Below, in pieces: positions 2,174 to 13,755 of a DNA stretch of 64,000 bases. The DNA lies in assembly GCF_023736115.1 (NCBI RefSeq), contig NZ_JAKQZC010000002.1, positions 434,001 through 498,000 on the forward strand, given 5' to 3'. Within the stretch, counting starts at the first letter, position 1; each line of letters opens with the position of its first letter. Position numbers and translations under genes: made by a program. A model generated the notes under the pieces. It ran no database searches, had not been told where the DNA came from, and saw only the letters and a list, made by a program, of their open reading frames with translations. Source of the stretch: Salinicola avicenniae (lineage in GTDB: Bacteria; Pseudomonadota; Gammaproteobacteria; Pseudomonadales; Halomonadaceae).

Positions 2174-2977
2174 TCAGGCTCCCCCGTCGTTGTTCAGTGC
2201 TGCCCTCAGCCCGGCGACACCGCCCGGCCCATGCTGCTGCGCCGCCAGCGCGGCGGCCTTCTCTTCCCCGGCGCGCATTGCCCGCTCGGCCCGGCTCACG
2301 TTCTCGCGGCTTTCGAGCGCCGCCCGGGTCTGGATCGGCTGGCCGGCAATAGCGCGGTTCACGACACCTTCGTAGCTCTTGAGAAACAGCCGACGGTGTT
2401 GCTCCAGCTCGGCATAGGTCGCGACGCGAAGCGCGTCCTTGTCGACTGACGTCATCGCCGCCAGCACCGTTTCGTGCTCTACCGGCGTACCGGTGAACGC
2501 GTTTTGCTCCACCGATCGCCAGGCCGCCTCACGGGTTGGCCAGCCCAGCGCTTCCGGTCGAACGCGACAGGCCTTCGCGAACATCATCGGAGAGTCCGGC
2601 GGCCACGCCGTGCGGGCCTCGGCAACCGCGCGCTCCGCCTGCTCGTCCAGCGCCAGCAGCCCGGAACGAACGTGCGCCTCGGTCAGATGTTGCAGCGCCT
2701 GCAACCACTTGCCGTCGGCATCGAACGGCACGAACTGCCCCTCGATCTCGCTACCCCACCCGGCCTCCTTCGCTCGGTGCCGCCAGTGCCGTCCGTAGAG
2801 CTGATCCAGGGCTACGAACAGCGTGTCGACCGACTCAGCCGTGACCGGCCCGCTGATCGGCGTCGTAGATCCTTCCGGCCCCGCCTGCCGCGCGCTCTCG
2901 CTGCTGCTGCTCATGGATGCGACGGGCCTCTCCAGGCGAGAGACGGCGAGCGGAATCACGTTGGTGGCCATTTGCAT
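2174..2977 (-). CDS. Replication protein P-like
   Basis: 267-residue protein starting at ATG 2977, chosen because GGAGG sits 5-6 nt upstream; GTG 2983 and ATG 2971 are alternatives. After a low-complexity N-terminus, the segment VDTLFVALDQLYGRHWRHR resembles the start of lambda P-type helicase loaders, followed by a helical, Ala/Glu-rich body. It overlaps the 3' end of the O-like gene by 143 bp in another frame and lies immediately downstream of it, the same O-P order as in lambda. A function in loading host DnaB onto the phage origin is inferred from similarity and position. Confidence 0.6.
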   Translation of the reverse strand: MQMATNVIPLAVSRLERPVASMSSSSESARQAGPEGSTTPISGPVTAESVDTLFVALDQLYGRHWRHRAKEAGWGSEIEGQFVPFDADGKWLQALQHLTEAHVRSGLLALDEQAERAVAEARTAWPPDSPMMFAKACRVRPEALGWPTREAAWRSVEQNAFTGTPVEHETVLAAMTSVDKDALRVATYAELEQHRRLFLKSYEGVVNRAIAGQPIQTRAALESRENVSRAERAMRAGEEKAAALAAQQHGPGGVAGLRAALNNDGGA

Positions 2978-3752
2978 TGGCACCTCCGGTCTGTTTCGAG
3001 TGGGATGGCTGGGCTGCGAGATTGCGTCGCCAAGCGGTCAGGAAGTCAGCGAAGTGGCGATGCCAAACGCGGGGCTCGTAGGCACGGCCTGGCATCGCGA
3101 GATGCTTGGTGCGGAACTTCTCCAGCGCCTCGGCGCCGAACTGCTCGAGCAGTCGATCGGCATCGGAACGGGACATGCGGACACCAGCGAGCAGCGTCAC
3201 CACGATGTCACGGTCAGGCGTCCAGTCCTCGAACATCGGGAAAACGCCTGTCGGTAACGGCTGACCATCGTCGTCGAGGTTCTGGGCCCGCTCGAACACA
3301 TCGCCCTCACCGGAGAGAGAGGGGTAACCCTCAACTGAACCCCTCACCCCTGAACCCCTCTCTTCACGGTTTTCCGAATACCCCTCTTCGGAATCTCGAA
3401 TAGGGTTCGCCCCGTTTTCCGAATACCCCTCTTCGGAATCTCGACTACCCCCCTTCGGTTTATCGAATGGGGTCGCCATGAAGATTCGGCGCTCGATAAT
3501 CTGCTTGCCGTTGCGGATCTGCTCGATACGAACCCAGCCCTTCTTGGCCAGAGAACTGATGATCTCGGAGACGCGGTTGGGCGAAAGCTGGAAGAACTCC
3601 GCCAGCTTCTTGTTCGACTTGTAGCAGCCGCGAGTCGGGCTCTGCAGGCTATCGATCTCCACCAGCATGACCTTCTCCTGCATCGAGAGATCGCGATTCA
3701 GCCACACGTCCGCGGGGATCCAGACGCCACGGAAGGCACGTTCTTCGCTCAT
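2835..3752 (-). CDS. O-like phage replication initiator
   Basis: 305-residue protein. Residues 1-95 form a winged-helix domain (WIPADVWLNRDLSMQEKVMLVEID, KKLAEFFQLSPNRVSEIISSLAKKGWVRIE) typical of phage replisome organisers. Residues ~100-150 form a repetitive linker with two copies of DSEEGYSEN. The C-terminal part (~170-235) has a helical FEDWTPDRDIVVTLL region seen in many O/DnaD-like proteins. The start ATG at 3752 overlaps the upstream stop (ATGA). The repeated linker coincides with iteron-like DNA, as in lambda O, which binds iterons inside its own gene. Origin binding is inferred. Confidence 0.75.
   Translation of the reverse strand: MSEERAFRGVWIPADVWLNRDLSMQEKVMLVEIDSLQSPTRGCYKSNKKLAEFFQLSPNRVSEIISSLAKKGWVRIEQIRNGKQIIERRIFMATPFDKPKGGSRDSEEGYSENGANPIRDSEEGYSENREERGSGVRGSVEGYPSLSGEGDVFERAQNLDDDGQPLPTGVFPMFEDWTPDRDIVVTLLAGVRMSRSDADRLLEQFGAEALEKFRTKHLAMPGRAYEPRVWHRHFADFLTAWRRNLAAQPSHSKQTGGANANGHQRDSARRLSPGEARRIHEQQQRERAAGGAGRIYDADQRAGHG
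3320..3450. other. Candidate prophage replication origin (iterons in O-like gene)
   Basis: Two perfect 31-bp direct repeats (3369-3399 and 3414-3444) start 45 bp apart. Each contains an inverted repeat TTCCGAA-N8-TTCGGAA. Three further degenerate copies of the core (G-A-A-C/T-CCCCTC type) occur at 3324-3332, 3337-3345 and 3352-3360. They lie in the middle of the O-like gene, where lambda keeps its four iterons with dyad symmetry. The repeats could instead merely encode a repetitive linker, but the perfect nucleotide identity and dyad symmetry favour a DNA function. Confidence 0.55.
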
Positions 3753-4203: not shown

Positions 4204-4434
4204 ATGGCCACAACTGATGAACTGCTGAAATCCGTGCTTGTGATGCAGACCGAGATACTGGGGCGACTCGCCGCTATCGAGCGTGAGGTGGGCGTCGACC
4301 AGAGTTACGCCGGGGACATGCGAGACAACGCCATCGCGGACCTGGAATACATCGCCGACTCCGACTTCGGCGCCGCAATCTGGAAAGACCTCCAGCCCAC
4401 GCTGCGCAAGATCGCCGCCTTCGAGGACCATTAA
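4204..4434 (+). CDS. Small hypothetical protein, opposite strand
   Basis: 76-residue acidic helical protein (starts MATTDELLKSVLVMQTEILG) encoded on the plus strand inside the otherwise leftward operon. AAGGA lies 8 nt before ATG 4204. Codon choice is normal for the region (CTG, GAG and GCC preferred). Its 3' end overlaps by 4 nt the stop of the converging minus-strand gene at 4431. The divergent placement suggests its own promoter and perhaps expression in the lysogen. No family recognised. Confidence 0.55.
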   Translation: MATTDELLKSVLVMQTEILGRLAAIEREVGVDQSYAGDMRDNAIADLEYIADSDFGAAIWKDLQPTLRKIAAFEDH

Positions 4435-4724
4435 CGCTCCTCCAGGATTTCGGTCAGGTCGTGCGTGCGCGTGGCCTTGATGTGCTTCTCCAAGCGTCGC
4501 GCCCAAGCCTGGCCGAGCATCTCATCTGTGAGATAGCGGTGGTGATTCATCCGCATATTCATCTCGACCCATCGGCGGCTATCTGCCAGCGACAGAACCA
4601 AGTGAGCTTTGGCACCAGTGAACGTGGCGCCGCGCTCCATGCCCGCAAACACCCGGTCGAGCTCTTCGCCTCGGCCGGCGCGGCTGGCGCGAATGACGAA
4701 TCGAATACGTTTGATCAAGCTCAT
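4431..4724 (-). CDS. Phage early protein (unknown)
   Basis: 97 residues from ATG 4724 with GGGGGAGC upstream. It has a basic N-terminus (MSLIKRIRFVIRASRAGRGEELDR) and a helical rest (ADSRRWVEMNMRMNHHRYLTDEMLGQAWARRLEKH). It follows the cro-like gene by 41 nt in the same operon and converges with the small plus-strand gene. It contains no recognisable domain. Confidence 0.55.
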   Translation of the reverse strand: MSLIKRIRFVIRASRAGRGEELDRVFAGMERGATFTGAKAHLVLSLADSRRWVEMNMRMNHHRYLTDEMLGQAWARRLEKHIKATRTHDLTEILEER

Positions 4725-4765
4725 GTCGTGCTCCCCCTGAACCCCTGTATGGAAAACCACCCCCG

Positions 4766-5050
4766 TCACTGGGCAGTTTCACTACTCGGTTGTTTCGTAG
4801 AATGGGAGCCATCCGGTGAGGAGTGATTGACCAACTCCGGCCACATCAGATGCCAGTCGTCAGGACGTAGCTGCTTTCGCGTTGCCTCGCCTGCACTGGC
4901 CCGTTCAACGAGAGCGGCAGTCTCGACTGATGCCGTCTTGTGGCCGTAGCCAATCAACCGGAGATAGGCGCGAGTCGTGCCCGTGGCGGTTATCTGCTGA
5001 TCGCTGGCCTGCTTCAACCAGCGCAACAGGCTATCGATGCGTGTCTTCAT
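4766..5050 (-). CDS. Cro-like repressor (YdaS/Cro family HTH)
   Basis: 94-residue protein, first gene of the leftward early operon. Residues 8-60 form an HTH (SLLRWLKQASDQQITATGTTRAYLRL), followed by LRPDDWHLMWPEL (61-73), a motif common in YdaS/Cro-type phage proteins. The start is ATG 5050 with GGAG 6 nt upstream; an in-frame ATG at 5089 would lie in the operator. It is divergent from the cI-like gene across three operators, so it probably binds them to favour lytic growth. The Ser/Thr-rich tail is unstructured. Confidence 0.78.
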   Translation of the reverse strand: MKTRIDSLLRWLKQASDQQITATGTTRAYLRLIGYGHKTASVETAALVERASAGEATRKQLRPDDWHLMWPELVNHSSPDGSHSTKQPSSETAQ

Positions 5051-5078
5051 CGGTGGCTCCAGTGGATATCGGCACCAA

Positions 5079-5107
5079 TGATTACCCACGGGTAATGCTT
5101 AAATCAA
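5079..5107 (-). promoter_or_regulatory. Candidate pR promoter of cro-like gene
   Basis: On the minus strand, TTGATT (5107-5102) and TAATCA (5084-5079) are separated by 17 nt. The perfect operator at 5081-5096 fills the spacer, so repressor binding would block polymerase. The same layout (TTGAYY, ~17 nt containing the operator, TAAT-AT) recurs at 7718-7747, which supports it as a real promoter family. Confidence 0.55.
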
Positions 5108-5136
5108 TACCCACAGGGAATTTACCTGTGAGTAAC
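5081..5136. promoter_or_regulatory. OR-like operator cluster (three sites)
   Basis: Three related 16-bp sites lie between the divergent cro-like and cI-like genes: ATTACCCACGGGTAAT at 5081-5096 (perfect 7-bp arms), AATACCCACAGGGAAT at 5106-5121 and TTTACCTGTGAGTAAC at 5121-5136. The consensus is ATTACCCRYGGGTAAT. The grading from perfect to imperfect and the three-site arrangement resemble lambda OR1-OR3. The same sequence recurs at 7704-7777. Confidence 0.8.
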
Positions 5137-5150
5137 AGGCGCGGAATATT
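5121..5150 (+). promoter_or_regulatory. Candidate pRM promoter giving a leaderless cI mRNA
   Basis: TTTACC (5121-5126) and AATATT (5145-5150) are separated by 18 nt. Transcription would begin about 6-7 nt after the -10 element, essentially at the cI-like ATG (5156), and there is no Shine-Dalgarno before that ATG. Lambda cI is likewise made from a leaderless pRM transcript. The third operator covers the -35 element. Confidence 0.4.
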
Positions 5151-5155
5151 CCCGC

Positions 5156-5923
5156 ATGGACATCTACGAGATTCGCCGCAGAAACCTGCAGGCACTGTTG
5201 AACGATCGCTTTGGCGGTAAGAAAGCGAGGCTGGCAGACGCTATTGATCGGCAGTCGAGCTACATCTCGCGCTGCCTGTCGACCGGCGCGCACCGAAAAC
5301 GGATTGGCGAGGATTTCGCACGCCACATCGAAAACTCTTTGGGGCTCGACAAGGGTTGGCTGGACCGCTCAGAGCCGCAGAGTCATGCCGTGGAAGAGCC
5401 CACCACCGAGTCCTATGGCAAGCCCGCCAGCGATAACGAGCTAACCTTCACCGAGAATATGGATCCATGGGATCGCTCCCAGCCGCTTGCTGAAGACGAG
5501 GTGGAGATCCCGCTATTCCGTGAGGTCGCGTTGTCAGGTGGCGGTGGGCGAACCAAGGTGGTCGAGAACAATGGAGCGGCTTTGCGTTTCAAGCGCAGCA
5601 CGCTCAGGAGCGCCGGTGTGACGAAAGAGGCAGCGGCTTGCGCTTTCGTTGAGGGCGAGAGCATGGAACCTATTTTGCCGGATGGCGCTTCAGTCGGGGT
5701 GGACACCGCCGACAAGCAAATCAAAGACGGCAAGATGTACGCGATCGACCATGACGGCCTGCTAAGGGTGAAATTTCTCTACCGCCTGCCTGGCGGCGGG
5801 CTCCGGATCCGCAGCGCCAACCCGGATAAGGTTGAGCATCCAGACGAAGACCTCGACGAGAACTGGCCGGAGAAGGTCAACATAATCGGCAAGGTGTTCT
5901 GGTACAGCGTGTTGCTGCATTGA
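5156..5923 (+). CDS. CI-like prophage repressor, S24 peptidase family
   Basis: 255-residue lysogeny repressor. The N-terminal HTH (about 5-60, ARLADAIDRQSSYISRC) is followed by a linker and a LexA/S24 peptidase domain. The nucleophile is in GESMEP (S169) and the general base is K206 in LRVKFLY, 37 residues apart as in LexA. The likely self-cleavage site is the LSGGGG stretch near 126-131. It presumably holds the cro operon and the rightward operon off by binding the operators at 5081-5136 and 7704-7777, and is inactivated by RecA-stimulated autocleavage. It is followed by a terminator, so it is transcribed separately from the next gene. Confidence 0.92.
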   Translation: MDIYEIRRRNLQALLNDRFGGKKARLADAIDRQSSYISRCLSTGAHRKRIGEDFARHIENSLGLDKGWLDRSEPQSHAVEEPTTESYGKPASDNELTFTENMDPWDRSQPLAEDEVEIPLFREVALSGGGGRTKVVENNGAALRFKRSTLRSAGVTKEAAACAFVEGESMEPILPDGASVGVDTADKQIKDGKMYAIDHDGLLRVKFLYRLPGGGLRIRSANPDKVEHPDEDLDENWPEKVNIIGKVFWYSVLLH

Positions 5924-5981: not shown

Positions 5982-6004
5982 AACCCGCCCATAAAGGCGG
6001 GTTT
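5982..6004 (+). terminator. Rho-independent terminator after cI-like gene
   Basis: Stem AACCCGCC / GGCGGGTT with a short A-rich loop (5982-6003) ends in TTTAT, about 60 nt after the repressor stop. It separates the repressor transcript from the downstream nuclease gene. Confidence 0.8.
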
Positions 6005-6030: not shown

Positions 6031-6094
6031 ATCCTTGCGTTGTGTTATGACGAAATAACCATGAAATAACACAAAGAAACACAAGGGGAGCTCT
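6031..6094 (+). promoter_or_regulatory. Regulatory region of the SNIPE-like gene
   Basis: AT-rich leader with an inverted repeat TTGTGTTAT (6040-6048) / ATAACACAA (6066-6074) and a short direct repeat (GAAATAAC). AAGGGGAGC (about 6083-6091) is the ribosome site for ATG 6095. Together with the flanking terminators it makes the nuclease gene an autonomous transcription unit. The inverted repeat is unlike the CI/Cro operators, so control is probably separate. The exact -35/-10 elements cannot be fixed by eye. Confidence 0.45.
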
Positions 6095-7639
6095 ATGTCC
6101 GAAGGCGCTATCGTTCTACTGGTGGTGCTCGGCTTGATCGTGTCAGGCTGGGCGACAGCGCTAATCTACAAGCGAAAATGCAAACTCAAGGAGTTGGAAC
6201 TAGAAAGATTTCGACAATCCGTCGAGCATCTATGGCAGTACGAGGGTATTCACGACGCGACAGAGCGGTCAGAGGCACTGGTCAAGCAGGCAAAGGAAAC
6301 GGCTCTCCAAGCCCAACAGCGCGCCGACGAGATCGAGTCACAGGCCCAACAAGCCGCAGAGCGGCTGCGCAAAGAAGCCGAGCAGGAAAAACAGCGTATC
6401 CTCAGCGAAGGGCGTGCACAGGGCAAAGCCGCTAGGGACAAGGCCGACGCGACGATAGTCCAGGCCGACCGGCAGGCACACCAGATCGTCGAAGATGCAC
6501 GACGCCAAGCGGAAGAGACCGCAGGTAACGCCCTCAAGGCGGTAGAAAATGCCAAGCTCTATGAACAAACCGCCAAGGCCATGCGTAATATCATTGAGGG
6601 CTACCACGATGACTACATCGTCCCCAACTCCAGTCTGCTCGATGACCTGGCCGAAGACTTTTCTCACAAGGATGCCGGCGAAAAACTCAAGCAAGCGCGC
6701 AAGCACAGTCGTGACATGGCAAAGAATGGTCGTGCCGGCGACTGCGACTACAAGGAAGCAGTGCGCCGCGAATATGCCATACATTTCGCTGTTGACGCCT
6801 TCAATGGCAAGGTCGATTCCGTCCTTTCTAAAGTCAAGCATGACAACTACGGCAAGTTGCGCCAGGCCGTTCTCGATGCATTCGCCGTAGTGAACCACAA
6901 CGGCATGCCGTTCAAGAACGCACGCATCACCGACCTCTACCTGCAGGCTCGCCTGGAAGAGCTCAAGTGGGCGGTTACCGCCATGGAATTGAGGCAGGCG
7001 GAGCAGGAAGAGCAGCGCGCCATCCGCGAACAGATGAGAGAAGAGGAAAAAGCCCGCCGCGACATCGAAAAAACGCTCAAGCAAGCCGAGAAGGAAGAGC
7101 GTATGCTCGCCAAGGCCATGGAAGCGGCTCGTAAGCAACTTGAGGATGCCAACGATGAAGAGCGGGCCCAGTTCCAGGCACGACTAAGCGAACTCGAACA
7201 ACAGTTGGAAGAAGCCGAATCACGGGGGCAGCGAGCGCTATCCATGGCGCAACAGACTAAGCGTGGTCATGTATACATCATCTCCAACATCGGCTCGTTC
7301 GGAGAGAATGTGCTCAAGATCGGCATGACCCGTCGGCTGGAGCCGCTCGACCGCGTCAAAGAGCTGGGAGATGCCAGCGTCCCCTTCTCTTTCGACGTAC
7401 ACGCCATGATCTACTCAGAAGACGCCCCCGCTCTGGAGAATAAACTGCACCGTCAGTTCGCAGCTCGGCAGGTAAACCGGGTCAACCCTCGCAAGGAGTT
7501 CTTCGATGTTTCCTTGACTGAGATACGCGAAGCGATCGAAGAAGAAGCGCTCGAGGTTCACTGGACGATGTCCGCCGAAGCCTGGGAGTATCGCGAATCA
7601 CAATCCCTGGCAGAACGCGAACTACAAGCAGTTTCCTAA
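6095..7639 (+). CDS. SNIPE-like membrane-anchored DUF4041/GIY-YIG nuclease
   Basis: 514-residue protein. Residues 4-25 form one N-terminal membrane segment (AIVLLVVLGLIVSGW) and basic KRK follows, so the bulk should be cytoplasmic. Residues ~30-155 are Gln/Ala/Glu-rich coiled coil. Residues ~158-320 fit the DUF4041 region, and ~300-385 are a second charged coiled coil. Residues 391-480 form a T5orf172/Mug113 GIY-YIG nuclease: VYI (Y394), KIGMT (408-412), R413/R414/R420, catalytic E448 in LENKLH, and N464 before EFF. From memory, this architecture is that of SNIPE, an anti-phage protein reported to cut incoming DNA at the membrane. The gene has its own leader and terminators and lies between cI and the second operator cluster, like rexAB in lambda. 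Confidence 0.82.
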   Translation: MSEGAIVLLVVLGLIVSGWATALIYKRKCKLKELELERFRQSVEHLWQYEGIHDATERSEALVKQAKETALQAQQRADEIESQAQQAAERLRKEAEQEKQRILSEGRAQGKAARDKADATIVQADRQAHQIVEDARRQAEETAGNALKAVENAKLYEQTAKAMRNIIEGYHDDYIVPNSSLLDDLAEDFSHKDAGEKLKQARKHSRDMAKNGRAGDCDYKEAVRREYAIHFAVDAFNGKVDSVLSKVKHDNYGKLRQAVLDAFAVVNHNGMPFKNARITDLYLQARLEELKWAVTAMELRQAEQEEQRAIREQMREEEKARRDIEKTLKQAEKEERMLAKAMEAARKQLEDANDEERAQFQARLSELEQQLEEAESRGQRALSMAQQTKRGHVYIISNIGSFGENVLKIGMTRRLEPLDRVKELGDASVPFSFDVHAMIYSEDAPALENKLHRQFAARQVNRVNPRKEFFDVSLTEIREAIEEEALEVHWTMSAEAWEYRESQSLAERELQAVS

Positions 7640-7660: not shown

Positions 7661-7686
7661 AACCCGCCCTCGAGGCGGGTTTTTTG
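7661..7686 (+). terminator. Rho-independent terminator after SNIPE-like gene
   Basis: ACCCGCC / GGCGGGT stem around a CTCGA loop followed by TTTTTT, 22 nt after the stop codon. It insulates the nuclease gene from the next operator and operon. Confidence 0.88.
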
Positions 7687-7703: not shown

Positions 7704-7777
7704 ATTACCCAAGGGTATTGACCGTACAATTACCCGTGGGTAATTATTGTTCCCACGACAACGACATCGTGGGTAAT
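7704..7777. promoter_or_regulatory. OL-like operator cluster
   Basis: ATTACCCAAGGGTATT (7704-7719), ATTACCCGTGGGTAAT (7729-7744, perfect palindrome) and a half-matching site ending GTGGGTAAT (7762-7777). These match the ATTACCCRYGGGTAAT consensus between cro and cI, 2.6 kb away. In lambda, OR and OL are about 2.4 kb apart and are bridged by a CI octamer; the same looping is plausible here. CCCACGA (7752-7758) and TCGTGGG (7767-7773) can also form a hairpin in the leader RNA. Confidence 0.8.
7718..7747 (+). promoter_or_regulatory. Candidate pL promoter
   Basis: TTGACC (7718-7723) is followed after 18 nt by AATTAT (7742-7747), with the perfect operator lying in the spacer. It mirrors the layout of the cro promoter and would drive the rightward operon starting at 7783. 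Confidence 0.55.
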
Positions 7778-7782
7778 GAACC

Positions 7783-8196
7783 ATGAACCAGGTCACGCAG
7801 GACCACCAGACAATCGAGGCATTTGGTTACCGCTGCCGGATAGGTAAGCGTACCCAAGGCCTACCCACCGCCAAACAGGCACAGGTCATGGCAGGCATTG
7901 CCGCCGGCATGACCCAGAAAGAGATCGCCAAGCTGCGCGGCGTATCGCCAGCCACCGTCAAAAGCACGGTTGAAGCGCTCTACTTCACCCTTCACGCCCA
8001 GCGCGCGACCGATGCGGTCGCCAAGGCGATGCGTCGCGGCTGGATCGCCCCGCTGCTGCTGGCGATCACCATCAGCGCCATCTCCCCTGACGTCCACATG
8101 CAGCGCCAGCGCTCCAGCGGTGGCCGCCAGACAATCAGCATCACCAAGCTGTCGCGCCGCCAAGAGTCGTTCGACATCGCGGGGCTCGCAGCATGA
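7783..8196 (+). CDS. LuxR-type HTH phage regulator (N position)
   Basis: 137-residue protein, first gene behind the OL-like operators. Residues ~28-72 (LPTAKQAQVMAGIAAGMTQKEIAKLRGVSPATVKSTVEAL) are a GerE/LuxR-type HTH. A hydrophobic stretch near 88-100 (WIAPLLLAITISAI) could be a short membrane segment. No receiver or autoinducer domain is present. By position it replaces lambda N. No clear Shine-Dalgarno precedes the ATG, and a leader hairpin is possible. The stop overlaps the next start (ATGA). Confidence 0.7.
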   Translation: MNQVTQDHQTIEAFGYRCRIGKRTQGLPTAKQAQVMAGIAAGMTQKEIAKLRGVSPATVKSTVEALYFTLHAQRATDAVAKAMRRGWIAPLLLAITISAISPDVHMQRQRSSGGRQTISITKLSRRQESFDIAGLAA

Positions 8197-13587: not shown

Positions 13588-13755
13588 CTATGAGCAAAGA
13601 AGCAACCAAAAGCCCATATATCGGCCTACTTGGGTTCCCTTCACCCGCTCCAGGCTTCTCTTCCTATTCCCCAGCCCCTGTTTCCTCCCGGCCTTTCGCA
13701 TGGTCTCTTTGGCGAAGCCAATTGCCTCTTCACACGATACCTGTTCATCGGGCAT
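13588..13755 (-). CDS. Possible small protein (uncertain)
   Basis: Short minus-strand frame of 55 residues from ATG 13755, with a natural-looking sequence (MPDEQVSCEEAIGFAKETMRK, then KRSLERVKGTQVGRYMGFW). A weak AGGG lies 7 nt upstream. It uses several AGA/AGG codons. It could be a small prophage gene or a remnant of a longer one; nothing recognisable. Confidence 0.3.
   Translation of the reverse strand: MPDEQVSCEEAIGFAKETMRKAGRKQGLGNRKRSLERVKGTQVGRYMGFWLLLCS

Follow-up and report, generated by a model that had tools for sequence, protein, structure and literature searches.

In its immunity region, between the cI-type repressor gene and the left operators, a prophage of Salinicola avicenniae carries a gene whose product, judged from its sequence, is a member of the SNIPE (PD-Lambda-1) family. 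It is very probable that this gene is a defence cargo of a temperate myovirus and that it serves to exclude other phages when their DNA enters the cell. The region was analysed in a stretch of 64,000 nucleotides (the window), which corresponds to C4:434001-498000 of the 4.03 Mb genome (11 contigs). PD-lambda-1, first described in PMC9519451, has since been renamed SNIPE (PMC13190303). The E. coli SNIPE binds the tape measure protein and cuts the entering phage DNA (PMC13190303). A protein with a mechanism known from E. coli, the activity of which has also been tested in S. thermophilus, is placed in the seat of the lambda exclusion genes.

The SNIPE gene and its product

The open reading frame at 6095-7639 (+ strand) starts with ATG, contains no internal stop, lies on the same strand as cI and is the single match in the genome. 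Its product of 514 amino acids was assigned by PADLOC to PD-Lambda-1 (PDLC03976; E 4.4e-117, residues 67-510; second match 4.3e-112) and by PHROGs to phrog_1847 (4e-129), which is annotated as of unknown function, while four NCBIfam matches were all far under their own cut-offs. A profile search against Pfam, as proposed in the preliminary description, revealed DUF4041 (PF13250; 2.6e-11; 43.6 bits vs. a cut-off of 27) at residues 231-286 (6785..6952, + strand), inside the residues 158-320 where it had been expected. T5orf172 (2.9e-16, residues 391-482) and MUG113 (3.6e-19, residues 407-483), both of which we take to be families of the GIY-YIG type, were likewise over their cut-offs. The nuclease domain delimited in this way (7265..7540, + strand; residues 391-482) includes E448. 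The sole strong hydrophobic stretch comprises residues 6-24 (6110..6166, + strand; Kyte-Doolittle mean 2.62 over 19 residues) and is the presumed membrane anchor. Thus, the architecture that had been ascribed to SNIPE, with an N-terminal membrane helix (predicted here), a DUF4041 middle and a GIY-YIG end, was confirmed. A membrane anchor has been predicted for 66% of the SNIPE homologues (PMC13190303).

The residues that had been named as typical of GIY-YIG nucleases (Y394, K408-G410, R420, E448 and N464) are all present; they are invariant in an alignment of 11 rows with phage copies and, except for I409, also in 36 rows. In the alignment, E448 pairs with E414 of the PD-lambda-1 protein of phage PhiR26_1, and E414 is the catalytic residue that has been tested in SNIPE (PMC13190303). 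The PhiR26_1 protein carries E223, N250, L253, W257, E264, K305, I308, T319 and E414 as the SNIPE paper writes them (9/9) and can therefore represent the tested protein reasonably well. At the positions of E223 and W257, the window protein has the basic residues R256 and K291; the exchanges E223K and W257R strengthen the defence of E. coli SNIPE against Bas14 via the Bas14 tape measure protein (PMC13190303). The median identity to the other alignment rows is 70% for the nuclease (35 rows) but no more than 27% for the N-terminal arm (residues 1-157; 32 rows), so that the partner of this arm cannot be read off. Variability of the N-terminal arm has likewise been stated for the SNIPE family (PMC13190303).

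A structure model calculated from 36 rows (mean pLDDT 81.7, pTM 0.38) consists of a helix at 3-47, which encloses the hydrophobic stretch, and a long helix at 50-143, followed by a middle part made of helices and, from residue 391 onwards, an end domain of strands and helices. The predicted arrangement agrees with the way in which SNIPE has been described in print. The comparison with known structures, which had been suggested as a further check, returned nothing significant: a fold search with the whole model against the PDB gave 0/199 matches at E ≤ 0.001, with Slx1, presumably a GIY-YIG protein, at rank 8 (E 0.92), and none of the five matches of a profile search of the PDB sequences was a GIY-YIG nuclease. 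Since neither PDB search was significant, the fold search was rejected as proof of a nuclease.

The carrier prophage and its immunity region

The prophage of about 50.9 kb lies between two copies of an 18-base repeat, which corresponds to the 3' end of tRNA-Gly(ccc). One copy is located at C4:396796, 37.2 kb to the left of the window start and beside an integrase-like frame (named by eye from its translation); the other is the attR core at 13635..13652 of the window. Between the repeats, genes for terminase, portal, head, tail sheath (phrog_165, 1.9e-175), tape measure, baseplate and tail fibre proteins are found. The gene content thus characterises the carrier as a predicted temperate myovirus with a lambda-like control region. 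The preliminary description had called the prophage lambda-like, which holds for the control and the replication genes (O-like, P-like) and does not extend to the virion: contractile tail genes were found in place of the siphovirus tail that a strict definition of lambdoid phages demands. As a side observation, umuD-like and umuC-like frames (named by eye) lie inside the prophage in L011 (14187-15934, + strand).

The gene order around the repressor is that of a lambda-type immunity region, as far as can be predicted. To the left of the cI-type gene (5156..5923, + strand; Peptidase_S24, phrog_4), the opposite strand carries a cro-like regulator (4766..5089; weak YdaS match, phrog_35), an O-like replication initiation gene (2835..3752) and a P-like helicase loader gene (2174..2983). 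To its right, SNIPE is followed by the left operators and by the first gene of the left operon (7783..8196, + strand), which was identified by Pfam and PHROGs (phrog_3282, 'sigma factor', HTH). The predicted operators form a right cluster with TTACCCACGGGTAA (5082..5095) and TTACCTGTGAGTAA (5122..5135; two mismatches) and a left cluster with TTACCCAAGGGTAT (7705..7718; one mismatch) and TTACCCGTGGGTAA (7730..7743). The pattern TTACCCNNGGGTAA with up to two mismatches has four sites in the window, where 0.56 are expected and only one of 100 shuffled sequences reaches four, and the exact pattern occurs at two places in the entire genome, at 5082 and 7730, on either side of cI and SNIPE. Thus, the rexAB-like position between cI and a second operator cluster, which had been claimed from the letters alone, is corroborated by operator pairs that flank both genes. 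A PL-like promoter-like site (TTGACC-18-AATTAT; 7718..7747, + strand) lies over the left operators; because the promoter scan found one site and shuffled sequences gave 1.3, it is the overlap with the operators that speaks for this site. The cro side reads away from SNIPE and the PL-like site starts after it, and therefore neither lytic promoter, as mapped, would read the gene. The map fits with an expression of SNIPE in the lysogen.

It had also been proposed that SNIPE is an insulated unit with its own promoter and two terminators. Stem-loops are indeed present on both sides: ACCCGCC..GGCGGGTT after cI (5983..6003, + strand) and ACCCGCC..GGCGGGTTTTTT after SNIPE (7662..7685, + strand) are the only two of their pattern in the whole genome. 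The terminator scan accepted the T-run of the downstream stem; the upstream stem has a weak T-run and was not called, which leaves one terminator. Comparable stems are present to the left and right of SNIPE in L122-L124, L129 and L131, and none were found in L125-L128 and L130; the stem-loop pair may be a means of exchange. The promoter scan did not detect a sigma-70-like site directly upstream of SNIPE. What stands in favour of an own promoter is a conserved upstream block: the bases TATG (6046..6049, + strand), 49 bases before the start codon, are invariant in 10 aligned upstream regions (six from prophages and four chromosomal, out of 19) and are perhaps part of a promoter. Among all 19 regions, two (L125, L128) read TGTG at this place and six (L002, L130, L132, L133, L135 and L136) have nothing alike. 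This pattern speaks for, but does not prove, a promoter that in some members of the family moves together with its gene. A palindrome upstream of SNIPE (TTGTGTTAT..ATAACACAA) was considered as a regulatory element and rejected, as it is not kept in G011.

An exchangeable slot between cI and the left operators

At a threshold of 1e-20, SNIPE matches were found in 27/275 genomes of the Halomonadaceae and in three of the 18 genomes within the genus. The flanks of 22 places (the window, G011 and 20 regions) were used from the 29 SNIPE matches in the family; left out were G003, G038, G161, G166, G174, G212 and the second piece of G219. The copy of G219 (L137) is broken into two pieces about 1.2 kb apart, one of which has an in-frame TGA.

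The interval itself was surveyed starting from 38 genomes with a cI match, of which 15 further ones were fetched because they gave the best matches or had a matching N terminus. Among the 18 loci of this survey (the window, the 15 newly fetched loci, L129 and L131), ten have operators of the type TTACYYNNRRGTAA on both sides of cI and its cargo, and together with G011 there are 11 such prophages. Three of the 11 carry SNIPE (the window, G011 and G102), one has an empty slot (G015, with cI, one such stem-loop and the left operators) and seven contain other cargo. In G029, a HicB-family gene lies there together with one that matches PD-T4-9_C weakly and one that encodes a BRCT protein; G094 has a DUF1828 protein and G119 a PIN protein, each accompanied by an unknown protein. 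Moreover, G008, G005 and G192 contain short frames only and G073 has genes without a Pfam match. As to the remaining eight surveyed loci, five (L262-L266) are without these operators, L255 and L256 possess the left-operon gene and no such operator, and for L131 no cI was obtained. Furthermore, between the window and G011, SNIPE has a synonymous distance of 0.60, whereas that of cI is 2.6 and close to saturation; this points to a separate exchange of the two genes. Thus, the interval between cI and the left operators is an exchangeable slot, and its filled, swapped and empty forms in relatives constitute a natural series on what a prophage gains from one cassette.

Additional genes were observed downstream of cI at several loci. 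In G102, two extra genes precede SNIPE; in L042, a viral contig that shares this gene map, these encode a HipA_2 kinase and a DUF3037 protein (4286-5871), corresponding to the PADLOC candidate system PDC-M66A/B, and the map recurs in L129. Distantly related pairs that are built alike may be present in L044 (3953-5706) and L131, where the matches are below the cut-off or absent. A DUF7946/DUF7947 protein is encoded downstream of cI in two further prophages, L043 (5016-5870) and L256 (3684-4547), once before SNIPE and once alone, and is a candidate exclusion gene.

A wider reading would be that the interval is a docking slot of Halomonadaceae prophages for terminator-flanked exclusion cassettes, which are swapped independently of the repressor, and that the SNIPE cassette shuttles between this slot and host chromosomes; in the present host, SNIPE would recognise the tape measure protein in the absence of ManYZ and spare its own myovirus. 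We regard this extended scenario as possible, with doubt prevailing over confidence.

SNIPE on chromosomes, phages and plasmids

Close homologues of SNIPE also occur outside such slots, beside housekeeping genes. Eight loci of the family (L122-L128 and L130) with homologues that are 74-84% identical have none of the window's prophage genes nearby. Ten neighbour proteins from four of these loci were SelB, AbiEi, TPR, TRAP transporter, QueA and IS66 proteins, with three unmatched, and no phage family was found among them. SNIPE matches were obtained for 34/50,697 phage records, seven of which were opened. In EJ-1, KP12, Javan492 and MPV1, the homologue lies downstream of a repressor, and in PhiR26_1, ES18 and Yong-L1-251 it lies elsewhere. 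The ES18 homologue (L007, 3380-4909) is annotated as a possible moron and lies, at a distance of one small gene, upstream of the tape measure gene, the product of which has been reported to be bound by SNIPE (PMC13190303).

Repressor adjacency, defined as a repressor-like frame that has the same strand and begins no more than 3 kb upstream, was determined for 188 SNIPE proteins in 110 clusters (85% identity); the figures describe SNIPE alone. It was observed for 21 of the 37 clusters that include a sequence from a phage, a viral contig or the window, and for 7/73 genome-only clusters. The viral sequences, which were pre-selected for phages, represent the 80 best of 106 confirmed matches, and the species-wide sequences the 80 best of at least 582. 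Because of this pre-selection and the best-80 samples, the figures are not frequencies in nature. One of the seven genome-only clusters, L131, has an antitoxin-like HTH protein in place of a repressor and was left out when the adjacent frames were checked. Of the 27 frames checked (28 adjacent clusters), 25 match phrog_4, a transcriptional repressor, and the Pfam families Peptidase_S24, Phage_CI_repr and HTH_3 were found in 11 each. On a tree of the quick kind, which came with long-branch warnings, adjacency changes 18 times, of which at least ten changes are forced by starred branches, as compared to a mean of 25 for shuffled labels. It can be stated that phage-borne SNIPE in this sample often adjoins a repressor and has repeatedly entered or left that place. 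As a general home of SNIPE, repressor adjacency was rejected, given the 7/73 genome-only clusters and the 8/79 species-wide loci (best 80 of at least 582, L214 being dropped for lack of a SNIPE ORF).

The same data bear on the idea that SNIPE is a chromosomal defence gene that was dropped into the prophage and is of little use to the phage, the cI side merely tolerating insertions. This would agree with the family loci devoid of prophage genes and phage neighbours, with the minority of repressor-adjacent copies among the 79 species-wide loci, and with a slot that also houses small or unknown genes. It is nevertheless improbable: SNIPE is under strong purifying selection (dN/dS 0.073 against the 91% identical homologue of G011), three prophages of the family have it in this slot, and the at least ten forced changes on the tree point to repeated entry or exit. 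A cargo that serves its prophage in phage exclusion remains the preferred reading.

A membrane-bound nuclease, as predicted here, might also guard mainly against plasmids or free DNA, and relatives of SNIPE are indeed spread across hosts, phages and plasmids (185/72,556 plasmid records). Yet such relatives have been found and tested as phage defence, although one homologue was inactive (PMC9519451; PMC13190303; PMC12322248), which makes a guard of this kind very unlikely and favours a function in excluding phages. Klebsiella accounts for 112 of the 185 plasmid records, and the Klebsiella rows among the matches listed are about 109-113 kb in length; as this is near the size of two matching Klebsiella phage records (H14, H15), they are perhaps phage-plasmids.

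Probable phage exclusion in a host without ManYZ

In E. coli, SNIPE associates with ManYZ, which is needed for a robust defence against lambda-like phages using ManYZ (PMC13190303); this association does not characterise the family as a whole. Profiles of ManY and ManZ (PF03609, PF03613) had no match in the Salinicola genome, whereas E. coli, B. subtilis and L. lactis were recognised among 14 control genomes. The protein described here must therefore use the tape measure protein alone or another membrane partner. The missing ManYZ does not exclude membership in the SNIPE family because E. coli SNIPE still defends without it, mostly weakly, against most of the siphoviruses tested, probably via the tape measure protein (PMC13190303). 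S. thermophilus may be another host without ManYZ. Of two PD-Lambda-1 homologues from S. thermophilus, which are 98.5% identical to each other, one was inactive (PMC12322248). SNIPE in a host without ManYZ allows the sufficiency of the tape measure protein alone to be tested directly.

By analogy with the E. coli protein, the following course of events can be envisaged. SNIPE would be expressed as long as the prophage sleeps, presumably under the control of a promoter of its own; the N-terminal helix would anchor it in the inner membrane, with the DUF4041 and GIY-YIG parts facing the cytoplasm. When an incoming phage genome crosses the membrane, the DUF4041 part would bind the injection machinery, which is the tape measure protein in E. 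coli, and the nuclease would cut the entering DNA (PMC13190303). The target range would probably spare the carrier. None of the BASEL myoviruses and podoviruses were susceptible to E. coli SNIPE, which brought about no qualitative change in the induction of a lambda prophage or in the number of particles (PMC13190303). Since myoviruses and the induced resident prophage are spared in E. coli, the carrier with its contractile tail presumably has little to fear. This suggests why such a defence suits a prophage, the genome of which is already inside and remains unharmed in E. coli (PMC13190303).

The absent effect on induction also weighs against the idea that SNIPE regulates the carrier's own cycle, its nuclease acting on the DNA of the phage itself or of the host. 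Such a role could be derived from the rexAB-like position, because lambda RexA has been reported to modulate the lysis-lysogeny switch (PMC12894663), and from the DNA binding that DUF4041 promotes in E. coli (PMC13190303). However, close homologues occur away from such prophages, and we consider a regulator of this kind scarcely probable as compared to a system that excludes incoming phages.

Comparison with known systems

A known type of gene is thus found in a known kind of place, as exemplified by rexAB and bstA; what is added is one slot seen in filled, swapped and empty states, and the occurrence of SNIPE where the host lacks ManYZ. In the literature searched, we found no description of SNIPE occupying the repressor slot, along with empty and swapped forms of it, and none that raises SNIPE in the absence of ManYZ as a question; a word count of PMC13190303 returned neither 'rex' nor 'immunity region'. 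Many PD systems of E. coli sit in prophages (PMC9519451). The cI-N interval, which accommodates rexAB and bstA, is known as a hotspot of mosaic diversity (PMC8585504), rexABpp of P. putida lies downstream of a CI-like repressor (PMC12894663), and a defence hotspot has been located between cI and the integrase gene in a P2-related phage of Vibrionaceae (PMC9122126).

Like E. coli SNIPE, the window protein has one predicted N-terminal membrane helix, a DUF4041 middle, a GIY-YIG end and the catalytic glutamate (E414 corresponding to E448). In contrast to it, the protein is 37% identical to the PhiR26_1 copy, has another N-terminal arm and resides in a host lacking ManYZ. Homologous SNIPE-like proteins are encoded by EJ-1, KP12, Javan492, MPV1, ES18, PhiR26_1 and Yong-L1-251. 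In the first four phages, the integrase gene is next on the same strand, whereas the left operator follows in the window; the copy of ES18 lies shortly before the tape measure gene, that of PhiR26_1 near ren, on the opposite strand and not beside cI, and that of Yong-L1-251 at yet another place. As in lambda (rexAB), BTP1 (bstA) and P. putida (rexABpp), the exclusion cargo is located downstream of the repressor; unlike these, the window SNIPE has stem-loops on both sides. RexAB and BstA are unrelated proteins that act by abortive infection, whereas the SNIPE of the Salinicola prophage is predicted to cut phage DNA at its entry into the cell.
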